Part shown: one piece after another, positions 35,061 through 41,290 of the stretch
Position numbering within the stretch: position 1 is the first letter of the stretch
How the letters are laid out: each line of letters begins with the position of its first letter
Assembly (NCBI GenBank): GCA_030681515.1
Contig: JAUXSE010000056.1
Location: forward strand, 248,001-312,000
Source: Geothrix sp.
Lineage (GTDB): Bacteria > Acidobacteriota > Holophagae > Holophagales > Holophagaceae
Direction: 5' to 3'
Length of the DNA stretch: 64,000 nt
Position numbers and translations under genes: made by a program
Notes under the pieces: generated by a model
Database searches by the model: none
The model's input: only the letters and a program-made list of their open reading frames with translations
What the model was told of the DNA's origin: nothing

Positions 35061-35789
35061 ATGGTGAACCAACCTATCTTTGAGCGGGAATCCGTGACCC
35101 ATATCCTCGTGGTGGAGGACGAGCCGTCCCTCTGCCAGCTCCTCGTGAACAATCTGAGTTTTGAAGGCTACTCCGTGGAGGCGGCGGGTGACGGCGTGCC
35201 CGCCCTGGTGGCCCACGCGGCCCGGCGCGCGGATCTGATCGTGCTGGACCTCATGCTTCCCCACATGGATGGATTCGCCGTCCTCAAGGCCCTGAGGGAC
35301 CGCCAGGATGAGGTGCCGGTGCTCATGCTCACGGCCCGGGGCGAGGAGACCGATCGCGTGCAGGGCCTGAGCCTGGGCGCGGATGACTACCTGGTGAAGC
35401 CCTTTTCGGTGCTCGAGCTGATGGCCCGGGTGAAGGCCATCCTCCGCCGGACGCGCCCCACGGAACGCCCCCCGATGCTGCGCTCGGGCCCCTTCCGGTT
35501 CGACCTCCCGCGCCTCGAAGCGAAGCGCGATGGCCGGATGCTGGATCTCACCCCCCGGGAATTCCGCCTGCTGGAGATCCTCATCACCCATTCGGGCCGC
35601 ACCCACAGCCGCAAGGAACTGCTGCAACTGGCCTGGGAGCGGGACGCCCGGCCCACGGCCCGGACGGTGGATGTGCACATCGCCAATCTGCGCCGCAAGC
35701 TGGGCGAGGAACAGGGTGCCCCGTGGATCGCCACCGTGGGGGGCGAGGGCTACCGGTGGGTCACGCCCGTCGAGACGGAAACCGCCTAG
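35061..35789 (+). CDS. OmpR/PhoB-family response regulator
   Basis: 242 residues. Receiver domain: ILVVEDEP (acidic pair), DLIVLDLMLPHMDGF (phospho-Asp), MLTARGEE, DYLVKPFS (Lys). C-terminal winged helix: LDLTPREFRLLEILITH and TVDVHIANLRRKLGE ... GYRWV. Probably the partner of the upstream histidine kinase. ATG 35061 is chosen over 35037 because only the latter part aligns with the family; AAGG lies just before it. Confidence 0.9.
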   Translation: MVNQPIFERESVTHILVVEDEPSLCQLLVNNLSFEGYSVEAAGDGVPALVAHAARRADLIVLDLMLPHMDGFAVLKALRDRQDEVPVLMLTARGEETDRVQGLSLGADDYLVKPFSVLELMARVKAILRRTRPTERPPMLRSGPFRFDLPRLEAKRDGRMLDLTPREFRLLEILITHSGRTHSRKELLQLAWERDARPTARTVDVHIANLRRKLGEEQGAPWIATVGGEGYRWVTPVETETA

Positions 35790-35827
35790 GGCGTAGCTCC
35801 GCGGGCGGTTCCGGTCCAGAATGGGAC

Positions 35828-37156
35828 ATGACGTCCTGGAATCCCCACAGCTGGCAGCGCTTCCCGGCCCAACAGCAGCCGGCCTATGACGACCCCTCCG
35901 AACTCGAAGGCAGCCTCGCGCGCCTGCGCCGGCTGCCCCCTCTGGTGGTGCCCGAGGAGGTCATCCGCCTGCGCGGCCTCCTCGCGGAAGCCGCCGCCGG
36001 CCGGCGCTTCCTGCTCCAGGGCGGCGACTGCGCCGAGCAGTTCAAGGACTGCACCCCCGAATCCATCGAAGGCAAGCTCCGGGTGCTGCTCCAGATGTCC
36101 GTGGCCCTCACCCACGGCGGGCGCAAGCCCGTGGTCCGCGTGGGCCGCATCGCCGGGCAGTTCGCCAAGCCCCGCAGCAGGCCCACCGAGATGGTGCGCG
36201 GCCGCGAGCTGCCCAGCTACCGGGGCGACCTCATCAATGGCCTGGAAGCGGAAGAGGCCGCCCGCCGGCCCGACCCGGGCCGCATGTTGGAGGCCTACTT
36301 CCACGCCACGGCCACGCTGAACCACCTGCGGGCCCTCACCGCCGGCGGCTTCGCGGACCTGCATCATCCCGAGCGCTGGGAACTGCCGGGGGGGACCGGC
36401 GATGTCCCCGAGTACCGCCGCACCCTCGATCAGGTGAAGGAATCCCTCGATTTCCTGGAGGCCCTGGGCGGCGTCCAGCGGGACGTGCTGGAGCGCATTG
36501 ACTTCTTCACCAGCCACGAAGCCCTGCTGCTGCCCTACGAAGAGGCGCTCACCCGCTGGATCGGCGAGGATGCCAGCTACTACAACCTGGGGGCCCACAC
36601 CCTCTGGGTGGGCGAGCGCACCCGCCAGCTGGACGGCGCCCATGTCGAGTACCTGCGCGGCATCCGCAACCCCATCGGCGTGAAAGTGGGCCCCAGCGCC
36701 ACGCCGGACCATCTGGTGGACCTGCTCAACCGGCTCGACCCCGAGCGCGAACCCGGCCGCATCACGCTCATTTCGCGCTTCGGCGCCACGAAGATCCAGC
36801 AGGCCCTGCCGCCCCTGCTGAAGGCCGTCCAGGCCACGGACCACCCGGTGCTCTGGAGCTGCGATCCCATGCACGGGAACGGCACCGAAAGCGCCACCGG
36901 ACTGAAAACGCGCGACTTCGGCGCCATCCTGTCCGAGCTGAAGCAGGCCTTCGAGCTCCACCGGACCCACGCCTCCCACCTGGGCGGCGTCCACATCGAG
37001 CTCACGGGGGAGGCCGTCACCGAATGCACCGGCGGCACCGAAGGCCTAGCCGAGGCCGACCTCGCCAAGGCCTACGAAACCGGCTGCGACCCCCGCCTCA
37101 ACGGCACCCAAAGCCTGGAAATGGCCTTCCTCATCGCGGAGATGATGCGGGGGTGA
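35828..37156 (+). CDS. aroG: 3-deoxy-7-phosphoheptulonate synthase, class II
   Basis: First step of the shikimate pathway (PEP + erythrose-4-phosphate to DAHP). 442 residues, the plant-like class II form. Motifs: LQGGDCAEQF (metal Cys), GRIAGQFAKPRS, NLGAHTLWVGERT, GIRNPIGVKVGP, WSCDPMHGNG and HLGGVHIELTGEAVTECTGG. Start ATG 35828; the longer frame runs into the preceding regulator gene. Class II enzymes have no universal symbol; aroG/aroF are both used. Confidence 0.93.
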   Translation: MTSWNPHSWQRFPAQQQPAYDDPSELEGSLARLRRLPPLVVPEEVIRLRGLLAEAAAGRRFLLQGGDCAEQFKDCTPESIEGKLRVLLQMSVALTHGGRKPVVRVGRIAGQFAKPRSRPTEMVRGRELPSYRGDLINGLEAEEAARRPDPGRMLEAYFHATATLNHLRALTAGGFADLHHPERWELPGGTGDVPEYRRTLDQVKESLDFLEALGGVQRDVLERIDFFTSHEALLLPYEEALTRWIGEDASYYNLGAHTLWVGERTRQLDGAHVEYLRGIRNPIGVKVGPSATPDHLVDLLNRLDPEREPGRITLISRFGATKIQQALPPLLKAVQATDHPVLWSCDPMHGNGTESATGLKTRDFGAILSELKQAFELHRTHASHLGGVHIELTGEAVTECTGGTEGLAEADLAKAYETGCDPRLNGTQSLEMAFLIAEMMRG

Positions 37157-37193
37157 GGGCGGCGCATGCTCCGCGGTCTCCGCGCCCCCGCGC

Positions 37194-37231
37194 CTCCGCG
37201 TGAAAGAACCGGAAGGAGAGGTCACGCGGAG
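37194..37231. repeat. CTCCGCGTGA inverted repeat after DAHP synthase
   Basis: 10-bp perfect arms CTCCGCGTGA (37194-37203) and TCACGCGGAG (37222-37231), with further imperfect CCGCG pairing outside to about 37170-37246. Likely a terminator or dispersed palindromic repeat at the edge of the cassette block. Confidence 0.6.
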
Positions 37232-37273
37232 ACGCGGAGGCTGCGGAGATGGAAGCGCATGAATCCTAACGAC

Positions 37274-37381
37274 TCATTGAAAGCAGAAAAACGCACGAGC
37301 TTGGGCCGGTGCTTGGTAGGGATAGGGCAGCAGCAGAGGGTCCAGCCTCGCTTTGATGAGGAAGAACATCGGAAGCCGCAT
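37274..37381 (-). CDS. 35-residue ORF in terminal cassette
   Basis: ATG at 37381 with an AAGGAG ribosome site 8 bases upstream; product starts MRLPMFFLIKARLDPLL and ends FFCFQ, with TGA 3 bases before the terminal GTTAGGA core. No family recognised. It may be a genuine micro-cassette or the remnant of a longer gene whose attC has been lost. Confidence 0.35.
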   Translation of the reverse strand: MRLPMFFLIKARLDPLLLPYPYQAPAQARAFFCFQ

Positions 37382-37406
37382 GGAGGAACTCCTTCGAAAC
37401 TGTGAG

Positions 37407-37529
37407 GCCTAGCGAATGAAGCGAACCGGCCCCGCCTGCACCGAGACGATGAACGGAGCCGAGATTGCAAGATGTTGAGAGAGCGCGGAAGGCAATGCAA
37501 GGGGTCCGGCTTGAGCGGATGGCTAGGGC
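37407..37529 (-). other. attC3-like site after the toxin-antitoxin cassette
   Basis: About 123 bases between GCCTAGC (37407-37413) and GCTAGGGC (37522-37529), complementary ends with the inner GCTCAAGCCGGACCCC / GGGGCCGGTTCGCTTC arms typical of long attC sites. The core reads GCT instead of the canonical GTT, so it may be inactive. Arms closely match attC2. Confidence 0.6.
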
Positions 37530-37543
37530 TCACAGGCGGAATC

Positions 37544-37816
37544 TCACCTCTTTGCCCATTCAAGCAAGGCAAGCTGTGCGGCTTGATTCACGGACAGACC
37601 GGCTATTTGTGCTTTGCAGGAGAGCGCCTGCCAGATGCTGTCTTGGACTCGAAGAGAATGAGGGCGAGTGGGTTCTATGACCGTACCTTTAACCGGGCGA
37701 CCAGGTTTGGTGAGGCGGCCAGTGACGTGAGGGCCGAAATTCTTCTCAGCCCACGATGCTTCCTGCTCGATGTTGGCTTCGAGTTCGGCGAGGGATGGAC
37801 GCTTGCGAGCTGTCAT
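37544..37816 (-). CDS. BrnA-like antitoxin
   Basis: 90 residues. The C-terminal half (PHSLRVQDSIWQALSCKAQI, then LSVNQAAQLALLEWAK) looks like a ribbon-helix-helix DNA-binding domain; the N-terminal half is a flexible, charged toxin-binding arm. Its ATG overlaps the toxin stop by four bases, the usual brnT-brnA arrangement. Probably neutralises the toxin and represses the operon through the palindrome at 38078. Confidence 0.65.
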   Translation of the reverse strand: MTARKRPSLAELEANIEQEASWAEKNFGPHVTGRLTKPGRPVKGTVIEPTRPHSLRVQDSIWQALSCKAQIAGLSVNQAAQLALLEWAKR

Positions 37817-38061
37817 GGCGTTCTCCTTTGGCGAGATCGGATTGGAAATGCCGTGATGGGGTAAAATCCATCGTCGGTTTCTGCGAAGACCACACGGATG
37901 AGGCGACCCGTGTGGTTGGTGCCTTCACCTACGAATCGGAATGGAACCTCACTGGGGATTGAAGCCCAGTCTTCAGCGTCAAAAGCAGATTCGATATCCT
38001 CTGGCTCAAGGCCATGGTCTCGGATCTTTTCCAGGTTTCGAAGGCCCCAGAGGAGATGCAT
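37813..38061 (-). CDS. BrnT-like toxin (putative RNase)
   Basis: 82 residues. NLEKIRDHGLEPEDIESAFD followed by RLIRVVFAETDDGFYPITAF and a basic RSRQRR tail is the BrnT fold pattern (N-K-x-x-H-G, central V-hydrophobic strand, terminal Arg cluster). The family consists of ribonuclease toxins that stop translation. GGAG lies 8 bases upstream of the ATG. Similarity is judged by eye, so a related RelE-superfamily toxin is possible. Confidence 0.65.
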   Translation of the reverse strand: MHLLWGLRNLEKIRDHGLEPEDIESAFDAEDWASIPSEVPFRFVGEGTNHTGRLIRVVFAETDDGFYPITAFPIRSRQRRTP

Positions 38062-38077
38062 TTGCAGGTCTCCAGAA

Positions 38078-38094
38078 CAAATGTATCACATTTG
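38078..38094 (-). promoter_or_regulatory. palindromic operator of the toxin-antitoxin pair
   Basis: Perfect 7-bp arms CAAATGT/ACATTTG around 3 bases, 17 bases before the toxin ATG, overlapping a candidate -10 (TACATT, 38080-38085) with -35 TTGCAC at 38102-38107 (spacing 16). This is well placed for autorepression by a ribbon-helix-helix antitoxin. Confidence 0.65.
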
Positions 38095-38129
38095 ATTAGC
38101 GGTGCAAGTCCTGACCCGGGGAGTGGGGA

Positions 38130-38254
38130 ACCCAAACGAAAGCAGCCAACCGGCGCCGCCTGCACCGAGGCGCTGAGCGAAGCCGAGGGAGCGAGAAGAG
38201 GAGAGAAGGCGAAAGGCAATGCAGGCGGGGTCCGACTTGAGCGAGAGGTTAGGC
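38130..38254 (-). other. attC2-like site after the PIN-like cassette
   Basis: Minus-strand R'' GCCTAAC at 38248-38254, containing the TAA stop of the upstream gene, then CTCTCGCTCAAGTCGGACCC; the far arm GCAGGCGGCGCCGGTTGGCT ends in a degenerate R' (GTTTGGGT, 38130-38137). Inner arms CCGCCTGCA/TGCAGGCGG pair perfectly. About 125 bases, a long attC. Confidence 0.7.
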
Positions 38255-39472
38255 ATTGGCGGTGCGATCAGTGTGTAGGAGCATTTGAACTGTCTGCACC
38301 AGTAATTCAAGTTTAGAAACGACGATGGTTCCATTTTGTCGAACCTGATCTGCAATGAATGGTGCCATAAAGGAATCTGCCCGGAAAACATCGACGTATG
38401 GTGCGTACAATGCGTGAAGTGCGTCTACAACATCACTATCTTTAGGCATGCGGGACGCTTGCCCTACTGAACTCCAAATTGAAGAATGAAGCGCCCTGAG
38501 GCAGGTAGAAAAGCCCGGGCAATTTTGATCAAATTGGTTAAGGTCGATCTGTCCTCGAAAATCCGGATCGAGCTTTGTGACCACACTTGATGAAACCTTG
38601 ACCACCATTTCATCTTGGTGTTGATTCCATACTTTTTTGGTCAGTGTCCTTTGGCCTTTGGGTATGCCCAATGTTTCTTCGAATAGGACTATTTGGCTGG
38701 CTTGTTCAGTCATCCTTTTTGTGTCAGCCATAAGGGCTTTGGATGGCCCTCGTAACCAGTCAATTAATGGTGACATCTGATCGTGGTGTTGAGCGAACCA
38801 TCGCATCATCCATTTGGGATCGCGCAAACTCTCTTTAAACGCCCTGTCTGCCTCCGCTGTCGTCGTCAATCCCAACACATATTTCCATAGGACCTCAGCA
38901 TCGGAAGGTCGCATTGGGTACAAGCCCAGAAACTCATCAAGTTGTTTAGTTAGGTCATCACCGAGTATTGCTCTGACGGCTTCCTTGGTTGGTTTATTCT
39001 TTTTGAATATTTTACGCTTCAGTGTGCGGCGATGTTGCCGGTTGAGACTGTGCTTCTTCCCTGCGCTATCGACATCTTGAATGGCCTCAGCCCAATTCAC
39101 AGGAGAAATAATGTTTCCAAGATCAGGGAACCAGTCTGCATCTGATGATCGTACCGACTCTCCACCTGGCCTTTGAGTATTGATTGAAGCAAATTCAAGC
39201 GTTAGCAATCTATCAAATGATATTAGTGCATTGCGCCCACATAAATCAACGAGTAGATCTGCACGTAGACTCGCTAACGGTGTATGAACCGCTTCCATCG
39301 GTGCCATCTCTAGGAGAAGGATTCCTGAATATAGAAACTTCACTTGACCAGATTTAGACCATTCCAATAACTGATTTCGAATTTCAATGGTGCTCTCTGT
39401 CTGACAACTGGGATTAGACAGGCGAGAATAATCGCTGCTATCGAGGTAAACATGGATTGGTTGATTCGACAT
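38249..39472 (-). CDS. PIN-like domain protein, cassette-borne
   Basis: 407 residues, no named family. The start VYLDSSDYSRLS and the C-terminal DSDVVDALHALYAPYVD plus FRADSFMA give acidic residues (Asp11, Asp347, Asp350, Asp361, Asp366) in the strand-loop-helix pattern of PIN-like nucleases, separated by a long helical insert with basic patches (RQHRRTLKRKIFKKNK). Could be an RNase effector; this is inference. Codon use is far more A/T-rich than in the neighbours. Its ATG lies 12 bases from the attC1 core, with no clear ribosome site. Confidence 0.65.
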   Translation of the reverse strand: MSNQPIHVYLDSSDYSRLSNPSCQTESTIEIRNQLLEWSKSGQVKFLYSGILLLEMAPMEAVHTPLASLRADLLVDLCGRNALISFDRLLTLEFASINTQRPGGESVRSSDADWFPDLGNIISPVNWAEAIQDVDSAGKKHSLNRQHRRTLKRKIFKKNKPTKEAVRAILGDDLTKQLDEFLGLYPMRPSDAEVLWKYVLGLTTTAEADRAFKESLRDPKWMMRWFAQHHDQMSPLIDWLRGPSKALMADTKRMTEQASQIVLFEETLGIPKGQRTLTKKVWNQHQDEMVVKVSSSVVTKLDPDFRGQIDLNQFDQNCPGFSTCLRALHSSIWSSVGQASRMPKDSDVVDALHALYAPYVDVFRADSFMAPFIADQVRQNGTIVVSKLELLVQTVQMLLHTDRTANA

Positions 39473-39484
39473 TCTGGACCCAAT

Positions 39485-39547
39485 GCCTAACGTGGAGCTA
39501 AGGGGCTGCGCGCTTTTGCGCAGTCCCGCTTGAGCGCCGGGTTAGAT
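39485..39547 (-). other. attC1 site, canonical 63-base form
   Basis: Minus strand begins ATCTAAC (R'', 39541-39547) and ends GTTAGGC (R', 39485-39491), both fitting the RYYYAAC/GTTRRRY rule. Inner arms CGCTCAAGCGGGACTGCGC and GCGCAGCCCCTTAGC pair with the small asymmetry usual for attC. It starts 4 bases after the GIY-YIG stop codon and the next gene begins 12 bases after R'. Confidence 0.85.
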
Positions 39548-39551
39548 TTTT

Positions 39552-40364
39552 TCACGAGCCACCCCGCATTTTTTGCTCAATCGATCGAAGCGTATTTTGA
39601 ATTTCTCTTTCCTTCAGTTCGGGGTCAATGTCCTGAATGTATTCGATAGCAGAAAAATCATCGCCGCGCTTTCTGTTTTGCGGCGGTTCAAGCGCCTCGA
39701 TAAGCAGGGCTTCAAGTGTTGCGACAAGGCTGGCAAGTGATGTGTTGAGAGCTGTTTCTCGAAGATTGCCATCTTGAGTTACGTCGAGCAAGCCAAACCA
39801 AGAAAACCGGTTCCAGCGACTGCCCAAGCGATCAACTGTGTGTTCGAAAAGGCGCTTACCAAGCGGGCGGTCAATAGAGCGCCCGACATACACCACGGTG
39901 TGGTGGTCGTAAAGAATGTAAATACCTTTCTGTTTGCCAAAATCTACTGGCTTGGAAAGTGCCTGTTGTTTTCCATACATCTTAGGGTCGTTGCGCCACA
40001 CGACAAGATCACGTTGCCAGTACATGCCGAAGGAGTGAATGATTGAATCAGACAGCTCCACGTCCAGCTTGGCAAGAGACGCAGGTTTATTTTGATCGGC
40101 AACCGGAACTGTTGCCGGAATGATAGCTGCTGCCAGTGATCTCTTGAGTGTGAATATGCCTTTGCCAACGCGCATAAATGGCGTTTTCTCACCATCATGT
40201 TTTATCGATGCCGAAATTTGTGCGTTCACTGTTGCCGCAGGAGTTGCGCCGTCAGTCTCGTAGTAACCGCGAGATAATATTTGCTCTGATATTTCTGCGT
40301 AGTGCAGCGGGGTGTCCGACTCCCCAAGCACTTTCTTTATCGCTTCTTTCCAGGACTTCTCCAT
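39552..40364 (-). CDS. HARE-HTH / GIY-YIG nuclease-like protein, cassette-borne
   Basis: 270 residues. Residues about 4-78 match a HARE-HTH domain (WKEAIKKVLGES, HYAEISEQILSRGY, MRVGKGIFTLK), a winged module linked to restriction and modified-DNA recognition. Residues about 144-230 form a GIY-YIG nuclease: GIYIL (147-151), YVGRS (159-163), Arg171, His175, Glu218/Glu223 and PPQN (227-230). The pairing suggests a DNA endonuclease that recognises modified or chromatin-marked DNA, plausibly anti-phage. No methyltransferase neighbours it. Confidence 0.78.
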   Translation of the reverse strand: MEKSWKEAIKKVLGESDTPLHYAEISEQILSRGYYETDGATPAATVNAQISASIKHDGEKTPFMRVGKGIFTLKRSLAAAIIPATVPVADQNKPASLAKLDVELSDSIIHSFGMYWQRDLVVWRNDPKMYGKQQALSKPVDFGKQKGIYILYDHHTVVYVGRSIDRPLGKRLFEHTVDRLGSRWNRFSWFGLLDVTQDGNLRETALNTSLASLVATLEALLIEALEPPQNRKRGDDFSAIEYIQDIDPELKEREIQNTLRSIEQKMRGGS

Positions 40365-40540
40365 AATCTCTCCGAAAACCCTAACTTTGGATTAGACGGC
40401 CTGAATTCGATTTTGATAAGCCCATCATAGCGGGCAAATCAGCAAAGGGATGGACGCGGAGAGTCTACCTCCGTCCCGCCCGGCCATCGCGGTTCATTTG
40501 GGGCCGGAGGAACAGCGGCGGCGGTGGGCGGGTCCGGCGC

Positions 40541-41290
40541 CTACTGCACGGTGGGATGCACGCCTTCGGGCCCGCAGCGCAGGGCCAGGACCTCGAAGGG
40601 GACGCTGATCTGGATGGGCGTGCCCGCGGTCAGGTGCGGCAGCGGTTTCAGCCTCGGCGGGGGCAGCAGCAGGACTTCGCCTGGGCGCAGGGGTGGCAGC
40701 TCCAGGCCCTCCCAGGCCTTCAGGGGCAGGCTGCGCCGGGCGGCACCGGCCTTCAGCTCCAGGCTGCCCGTGGGCCACGCGTCCGTCATCCAGGCGCCCA
40801 GGATGGCACTCCCGGCATCTTCAAATGCCAGGCAGAACCCGGCGATGCCGCCCCCGGCCAGGCCCAGGGCCGCCAGGCCGGGCTGGGGCGGGCCCGACAG
40901 TTCCGCCCCGGGCCCCTTGACGCCAAAGCGGTCCAGATCCCCCCCGCCCAGCCGGCGCAGGGCCGCGGGCCGGGACAGGCAGGGCAGGAGATCCACCCGT
41001 TCCAGGCGCGGGGCCAGGGCCTCGGGCAGGGTGCCGCGGCGATCCCACTTTTCGGCGTAGGCCACCGTCTGCCCCGCGCGGGCCAGGGCGCGCGGCCCCC
41101 CTTCCAGCACGCGACGGAGGCTCGGGGGCACCAGCGCGTCCGCCAGCCGTTCGGGGTCGCCCTCCCCCAGCCTGCGCAGGCGGATGGCCTCGATGCGGTT
41201 CAGATCCGCCAAGCGCCCCGAGGCCAGCCGCGCCACGAGAACCCGGCGTTCAGCGGGCCCTTCGGCCCAGGCGGCGGTACCGAGCAACAT
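40541..41290 (-). CDS. hypothetical protein, possibly exported
   Basis: 249 residues from MLLGTAAWAEGPAERRVLVA; the short hydrophobic start ending AWA could be a clipped signal peptide, and a GTG eight codons upstream would lengthen it slightly. Leu/Arg/Gly/Pro-rich, no recognised domain. ATG overlaps the thioesterase stop (TGATG), so the two are translationally coupled. The frame is open far upstream through other genes on the opposite strand, which is a composition artefact. Confidence 0.6.
   Translation of the reverse strand: MLLGTAAWAEGPAERRVLVARLASGRLADLNRIEAIRLRRLGEGDPERLADALVPPSLRRVLEGGPRALARAGQTVAYAEKWDRRGTLPEALAPRLERVDLLPCLSRPAALRRLGGGDLDRFGVKGPGAELSGPPQPGLAALGLAGGGIAGFCLAFEDAGSAILGAWMTDAWPTGSLELKAGAARRSLPLKAWEGLELPPLRPGEVLLLPPPRLKPLPHLTAGTPIQISVPFEVLALRCGPEGVHPTVQ

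Follow-up and report, generated by a model that had tools for sequence, protein, structure and literature searches.

A putative satellite integron array with an attI-type head beside a DAHP synthase gene in Geothrix

The described elements closest to a cassette block that we analyzed in Geothrix sp. are the clusters of attC sites lacking integron-integrases (CALIN; Cury et al., IntegronFinder), whose proposed origins, according to the portion of PMC8618304 available to us, are insertion off target, loss of intI and rearrangement. The block lies in a 64,000-nucleotide stretch of DNA (the window, G000:C30:248001-312000, where G000 is the source genome, 3.2 Mb in 66 contigs and 99.5% complete), between a gene for class II 3-deoxy-D-arabino-heptulosonate 7-phosphate (DAHP) synthase and a conserved right host gene, and contains four minus-strand genes in the list of open reading frames (ORFs). 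With three attC sites in 37407-39547 (2.1 kb) and no intI near its head, it is a CALIN by the usual definition, as the initial annotation had proposed. It differs from one in its attI-type head, which is not required of an off-target cassette cluster. The annotation's description of the block as integrase-less holds locally but not genome-wide, since a full IntI with a 10-attC array is present on contig C11.

That complete integron is a sedentary chromosomal integron (SCI). The block shares with it the attC family, the attI core family and one cassette, but is short, lacks intI and an upstream attI box, and has changed distal attC sites. Loot et al. reportedly described in 2024 the insertion of cassettes at attG sites, and the block would resemble such insertions in having been integrated outside the integron by the resident IntI. 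Conserved CALIN positions away from the integron are described for Xanthomonas in the accessible part of PMC12444791. In the part of PMC9024848 available to us, IntegronFinder is said not to detect attI outside class 1, so that heads of the kind reported here would go unseen by that tool. We found no description of attI-headed, integrase-less arrays in the open-licence integron literature, which is weak evidence, as most subscription papers lie outside it. With its attI heads and multiple platforms, the arrangement appears to be a new form of the known integron arrays.

The head of the block and its attI-type core

Ahead of the first cassette, read on the minus strand, lies a 19-bp sequence, CGTCTAATCCAAAGTTAGG (40380-40398), in which the crossover point is expected after the G of GTT. 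We conclude from comparison of sequences that the block is probably a satellite integron array, that is, an attI-type platform with three cassettes and no intI of its own, filled in trans by the resident IntI. This reading rests on the three attC sites, on the attI-type core at the head, on the presence of just one full IntI, located on another contig with an array of the same attC type, and on a cassette common to the two arrays. The C11 IntI would insert excised cassettes by recombination of attC with the attI core at 40380-40398. The newest cassette, next to the core, would be the foreign nuclease cassette with its intact attC1, and the older cassettes would be the distal ones, with changed R boxes in attC2 and attC3. 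The features are as follows.

35723-37156, plus strand: left host gene, class II DAHP synthase (TIGR01358, 627 bits), which bounds the empty site on the left; the true start may be further in.
37265-37406, minus strand: possible remnant of a distal cassette, with a putative distal junction (CCTAAC at the GC step).
37407-37528, minus strand: attC3, of the resident type, with matching changes in its two R boxes (CTAGC/GCTAG); 107.5 bits and alignment.
37544-37816, minus strand: cassette 3 gene b, 90 aa, antitoxin resembling BrnA; weak HicB/Arc-like matches, homologue at L009:2526-2798.
37813-38061, minus strand: cassette 3 gene a, BrnT-like, 82 aa; Pfam BrnT match below cut-off, and C11 copy.
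38131-38254, minus strand: attC2, of the resident 124-bp type, with a changed R' box, GTTTGGG; covariance model, 111.7 bits, and alignment.
38249-39472, minus strand: cassette 2 gene, 407 aa, no family assigned; ORF with no family above cut-off.
39485-39547, minus strand: attC1, foreign type, 63 bp, with the two R boxes intact; box rule and folding.
39552-40364, minus strand: cassette 1 gene, 270 aa, HARE-HTH and GIY-YIG-like nuclease; Pfam-type domain matches.
40380-40398, minus strand: attI-type core, array head, CGTCTAATCCAAAGTTAGG; pattern match and comparison with the SCI consensus.
40541-41290, minus strand: right host gene, ORF limits approximate; tblastn orthologues directly beside the DAHP synthase gene in relatives.

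The initial annotation had noted GTTAGG at both flanks and a base composition unlike that of the host genes. The compositional difference was borne out (GC 0.505 in the block versus 0.666 in the remaining window). Five of the six occurrences of GTTAGG or CCTAAC in the window fall within 37000-40600. The right-hand GTTAGG (40380-40385) proved to be part of the attI-type core. The left-hand copy, CCTAAC at 37265-37270, coincides with the composition step at the left edge; neither attC nor attI surrounds it, and its role is unproven. Both edges miss the full GTTRRRY 7-mer, reading GTTAGGG on the right and GTTAGGA on the left (minus strand). As the head of a complete integron the locus would have its attI in the form of the core alone, and it has no adjacent intI.

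We scanned 29 IntI loci for a core match of up to 4 edits, 27 of them from the genus (the genome's own included) and 2 from other families. A match near intI was found at 21 of the 29, all within the genus (20 of 28 when the genome's own locus is left out), and commonly read CGTCCAATTCAAAGTTAGG; the distance from core to IntI match was 184-236 bp where both could be measured. The window and the genome G031 both contributed to a degenerate pattern, CGTCYAATYYAAAGTTAGG, and the chance figure was therefore taken from the SCI consensus: of the 13 nt left of GTTAGG, 11 agree with the genus consensus (P 1.1e-5, for a fixed place and equal base frequencies). Within the source genome, the pattern at ≤3 mismatches had two matches, the window head (0 mismatches) and C21:89782 (1 mismatch), and the reversed-pattern control had none. 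The C21 core also heads an attC array with no intI in the fetched stretch.

The agreement with the SCI consensus argues against the alternative that the resident IntI placed these cassettes off target, at a chance GTT (attG) site. Insertions of that sort are mentioned in the accessible parts of PMC12901181 and PMC12444791, and six of the eight places in the source genome that carry attC outside the SCI have no attI core at ≤3 mismatches (C38:77000, C5:11516, C34:8511 and 30176, C1:152459 and C60:3317), which would fit attG insertion. The contig C38 stops 0.3 kb past its attC, on the head side. Given the attI-like head, together with the attC-free alleles described below, we regard off-target insertion as quite unlikely.

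Integrase-free heads and variable loci across the genus

Of 37 same-genus genomes, 24 encoded a full IntI, and resident-type attC sites turned up in 44 of 47. Across the 47 genomes the core pattern at ≤3 mismatches gave 97 matches, versus 24 for the reversed control, and there were 29 exact matches (intI-linked heads included) versus about 0.009 expected by chance in 150 Mb. We inspected 44 heads: three in the source genome (window, C21 and C11), one in G031, and a further 40 spread over 15 other genomes; these 40 were hand-picked from the 97 matches with contiguous genomes favoured and are not a random sample, and a 3-mismatch match in the G024 integron array (L183) was excluded. Five of the 44 heads had a full IntI about 200 bp away, and 39 had none in the fetched stretch. 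Same-strand attC sites followed 37 of these 39, the exceptions being a lone core (L169) and a core at a contig end (L171). The lone core (G024:C1:194762, 1 mismatch, no attC downstream in the fetched stretch) may be either a platform without cassettes or a match by chance.

Two single-contig genomes illustrate the arrangement. In G032 the sole IntI (581571) belongs to one head, and the heads at 1546869, 2640104 and 3244361 have attC without IntI. In G063, satellites at 1970074, 2165220 and 2604811 share the core variant TTACTAG with the intI-linked head, and two others differ; the shared variant (L153-L156) looks copied from the intI-linked head or co-converted with it.

We also considered whether the block might be a degraded complete integron, in which a second intI at the DAHP junction was deleted and attI and cassettes were left behind. 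Loss of intI is one of the three CALIN origins that Cury et al. proposed, as reported in the accessible part of PMC8618304, and one satellite head (L179 in G004) does retain a 58-aa IntI fragment, 138 bp from its core. Searching as far as 3 kb upstream revealed no IntI trace at E≤0.05 for the window head or for any other integrase-less head scanned, L179 apart, and just ~140 bp separate the window core from the next host gene. Integrase-less heads at several loci would moreover require many precise losses, with old, complete deletions still conceivable. On balance we consider a degraded integron unlikely.

Flank searches identified two heads at loci that can be traced through the genus, locus X in 39 of 47 genomes and locus Y, at which the C21 array of the source genome sits, in 45 of 47. 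We fetched 30 alleles of each and counted the core at ≤3 substitutions within 1.5 kb. X and Y were picked for having heads, which inflates the attC-bearing fractions but not the zeros. At X, 7 of the 12 attC-bearing alleles had the core and none of the 18 attC-free ones did; the corresponding counts for Y were 8 of 10 and 0 of 20. Among the attC-free alleles, L192 and L203 (X) and L223 (Y) are cut by contig ends, and L238 is broken by Ns. In L192 (G010, locus X) there is a core-like sequence with an extra base, and the contig ends 268 bp on, so that this allele may carry attC beyond the cut. No pre-existing genomic site was thus seen in the attC-free alleles of these two loci, which speaks against attG insertion.

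The main evidence for action of IntI in trans, which is comparative, comes from 10 pairs of orthologous heads. Upstream of the core these were 0.72-0.89 identical, and in the 200 bp after the core identity dropped to 0.55-0.61 (mean of random downstream pairs, 0.589). Cassettes thus seem, by alignment, to have been exchanged exactly at the crossover point of sites with no adjoining integrase.

A wider arrangement is possible, and we put it forward tentatively: a distributed integron, in which one intI serves several integrase-free attI platforms at fixed loci and new platforms are founded by a travelling attI cassette. In the genomes G006, G025 and G014 the first SCI element is a 216-bp cassette that terminates in attI rather than attC (L073, L082, L093), its longest ORF (58 aa) overlapping the attI. 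Ten full copies occur in 7 of the 47 genus genomes (L325-L331, L337-L339) and none in the source genome. The copies lie in intI-linked arrays and elsewhere, six directly after attC and four after attI, with a different sequence behind each. The 103-111 bp running into the cassette's core are 82-86% identical to the satellite heads L144, L148 and L149, and a few other heads match over shorter lengths. As a putative mobile attI, this cassette offers a way of founding satellites; no link between it and the window head was seen. The delta-attI-type gene cassettes of class 1 and 2 integrons, in the part of PMC12901181 available to us, are also attI-ended; the 216-bp cassette differs from them in that it carries the upstream part of attI together with the core, resembles some satellite heads, and has an ORF of 58 aa.

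Heads of this kind on integrase-less arrays would add a further route to CALIN, with one integrase and many docking sites. If so, treating intI-linked arrays as the only active ones underestimates how much capacity for cassette capture a genome has. In known integrons, cassettes are expressed best in the position next to attI. Should the distributed arrangement be correct, such a well-expressed attI-proximal position may exist several times per chromosome.

The DAHP junction, the resident integron and points against a satellite array

We compared the DAHP synthase locus in relatives, as the initial annotation had suggested. In 28 resolved relatives, 17 junctions were empty (2-32 bp between tblastn match ends), five had intervals of 534-571 bp, four of ~1,200 bp, one, G006, of 1,697 bp (both insert kinds) and one, G031, of 2,716 bp; the count excludes G033 (L042/L101, off the contig end), G030, G026, G035, G036 and G009. 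The inserts of 534-571 and ~1,200 bp fall into families whose members resemble one another and do not match the window block. Homologous inserts of this other kind were seen at L049, L053, L054, L058, L059, L100, L109, L110, L112 and L113, which indicates that the spot varies generally. Neither finding that the annotation had named as refuting appeared: attC1 is present, and the genes are not in conserved synteny (gene 2 was found in 1 of 47 genus genomes, its own, and most resolved junctions are empty). The empty alleles contain no core-like sequence, a further point against a chance attG site, and are too short to display the original site.

The insert of G031 has two resident-type attC sites, other cassettes (ORFs of 170 and 138 aa) and a 334-aa ORF toward the DAHP synthase gene. 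Its core, CGTCTAATTCAAAGTTAGG, is one base off the window core and has the same right edge. G031 is not among the closest relatives (DAHP synthase identity 88%, versus up to 92%), and the site is therefore either old, with losses, or was used twice; the weak similarity of the flanks favours neither. The 155-bp flank of the window block (40386-40540) gave no match at E≤0.1 in either G031 or G063 and was found only in its own place. The ~140-bp flanks of the window and G031 are weakly similar, about 3 standard deviations over 500 shuffles, at least one of which scored higher.

The single full IntI of the source genome is at C11:6476-7420 (TIGR02249, 458 bits; cut-off 265). Other recombinase-like matches, all below the integron-integrase cut-off, were seen at C34:2996-3808, C8:33765-34319 and 172544-172681, and C17:13309-13950. 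The cassettes lie to the left of the C11 IntI, with 10 attC sites of ~124 bp and ORFs mostly on the strand opposite intI, which is also the orientation of textbook integrons. The array may continue further, since its first attC begins at a distance of 132 bases from the contig end. Resident-type attC sites are dispersed in the genome on C38, C5, C34 (two), C1, C60 and C21, in addition to C30.

The window's BrnTA-like cassette is 84% identical to its C11 copy over 855 bp, both flanking attC sites included. This common cassette and the common attC type would also fit a rearrangement, an inversion or translocation that carried a piece of the C11 array to C30. Against this, the cassette in question is just 84% identical. 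The flanking host genes are adjacent in relatives, where the junction is mostly empty, and the block has its own attI-type core while the C11 array retains its own. We therefore judge rearrangement very improbable.

Several findings weigh against a satellite array at this locus. No core match was found at 8 of the 29 IntI loci (L071, L074, L084, L090, L092, L094, L095 and L097), some of which are near contig ends. The upstream box YTAGRCGAAC (≤2 mismatches, within 60 bp upstream), present in 36 of 56 heads, is missing at the window, G031 and C21 heads, so that the window head is possibly a weak target. Even among attC-bearing alleles, the core was absent at ≤3 substitutions in 5 of 12 at X and 2 of 10 at Y, and the six coreless attC places of the source genome listed above count on the same side. 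The genome's own SCI core is a variant one base short of the consensus (CGTCCAATTTAAGTTAGG), which places the window head closer to the genus than to its own integron. Between the window and G031, identity over the 200 bp upstream of the core is just 0.64, which is above the 95th percentile of 76 unrelated upstream pairs (0.63) and within their range (maximum 0.66, mean 0.594), so that common descent of the window head is not secure. Lastly, with the R boxes of both attC2 and attC3 changed, most of the array may be fossil.

attC sites and cargo of the block

The site that the initial annotation called attC1 obeys the RYYYAAC/GTTRRRY rule at both ends, as had been noted there, and it folds as an attC hairpin. 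Across the 64 kb no second RYYYAAC...GTTRRRY pair spans 55-70 bp, and attC1 folds strongly. Such strong pairs were observed once, versus a mean of 0.05 per shuffled window (20 composition shuffles, RNA energy parameters), and none of that span and strength occurred in 50 shuffles of the block. Folded as single-stranded DNA, on the strand opposite the genes, attC1 gave a stepped attC hairpin (z -4.2), equalled in 0 of 200 shuffles.

We searched the whole window with a covariance model, R2, built from only the 10 attC sites of the C11 integron; its 10 matches in L009 arise by construction, and a second model, R1, which includes the window's own sites, was not used as a test. R2 recovered 38131-38254 (E 9.7e-31) and 37407-37528 (E 1.6e-29), with no third match at E≤10. 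It did not recover attC1, which is of another attC type. By alignment, attC2 keeps R'' (GCCTAAC) and has GTTTGGG as R', and in attC3 AAC has become AGC and GTT has become GCT in the two boxes, with pairing preserved, perhaps by chance or as a tolerated variant. Sites altered in this way are perhaps no longer excisable. The fourth cassette that had been proposed did not hold up: we found three, and 37265-37406, where the covariance model placed no attC, is a remnant at most.

The cargo (a nuclease-like protein, a 407-aa protein and a BrnTA-like pair) is ordinary cassette cargo. The initial annotation had described it as nuclease and toxin-antitoxin genes. For the nuclease, gene 1 has a strong HARE-HTH match (E 2.1e-15, 57.3 bits; cut-off 25.9), but its GIY-YIG match is below cut-off (GIY_YIG_2, E 0.11, 12.9 bits versus 22.4). 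For the pair, the toxin-antitoxin label is plausible but weak: gene a matches BrnT below the curated cut-off (E 2e-4, 21.9 bits versus 34.5), and gene b has weak matches to HicB (E 0.034, below cut-off) and to an Arc-like repressor PHROG (E 0.019).

Relatives of gene 1 reach 94% amino acid identity in other phyla. We kept 79 loci, many from metagenome-assembled genomes, in records named Nitrosomonadales, Thalassocella, Acidithiobacillus, Lentisphaeria, Nitrospirae and others. In Acidithiobacillus sulfuriphilus (L247), a 63-bp attC lies 4 bp past the stop of the gene 1 relative, and 55 of its 63 positions are identical to attC1. Under a strict box rule, an attC-like pair was found within 210 bp after the stop in 6 of 74 testable relatives, and none was found in the next 220 bp beyond, where sequence sufficed. 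Two of the six (L245 and L304) have pairs farther from the stop with poorer folding and look like chance. A relaxed box rule flagged 9 of 76 relatives and missed several sequences that look like attC by eye, such as those at L246 and L248. Cassette 1 looks like a cross-phylum traveller, judging from these relatives, most of which are without attC under the rules applied. A plasmid search with gene 1 gave two distant matches. Matches to attC1 itself, at 79-81%, were found on two plasmids.

Gene 2 had no family above cut-off in profile searches, no match on plasmids and no relative on viral contigs. A PIN-like reading of its product is a guess. A structure predicted from the one sequence had a predicted local distance difference test score (pLDDT) of 37 and was dropped, and no fold search was based on it. 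A sequence search of the PDB with genes 1 and 2 gave chance-level matches only (E 0.33 or worse), and an Rfam scan of the window at gathering thresholds returned no family. In the interval between the DAHP synthase gene and the block, we noticed by eye a GC-rich inverted repeat, CCTCCGCGTG...CACGCGGAG, at 37190-37245, which resembles a terminator or an intergenic repeat.

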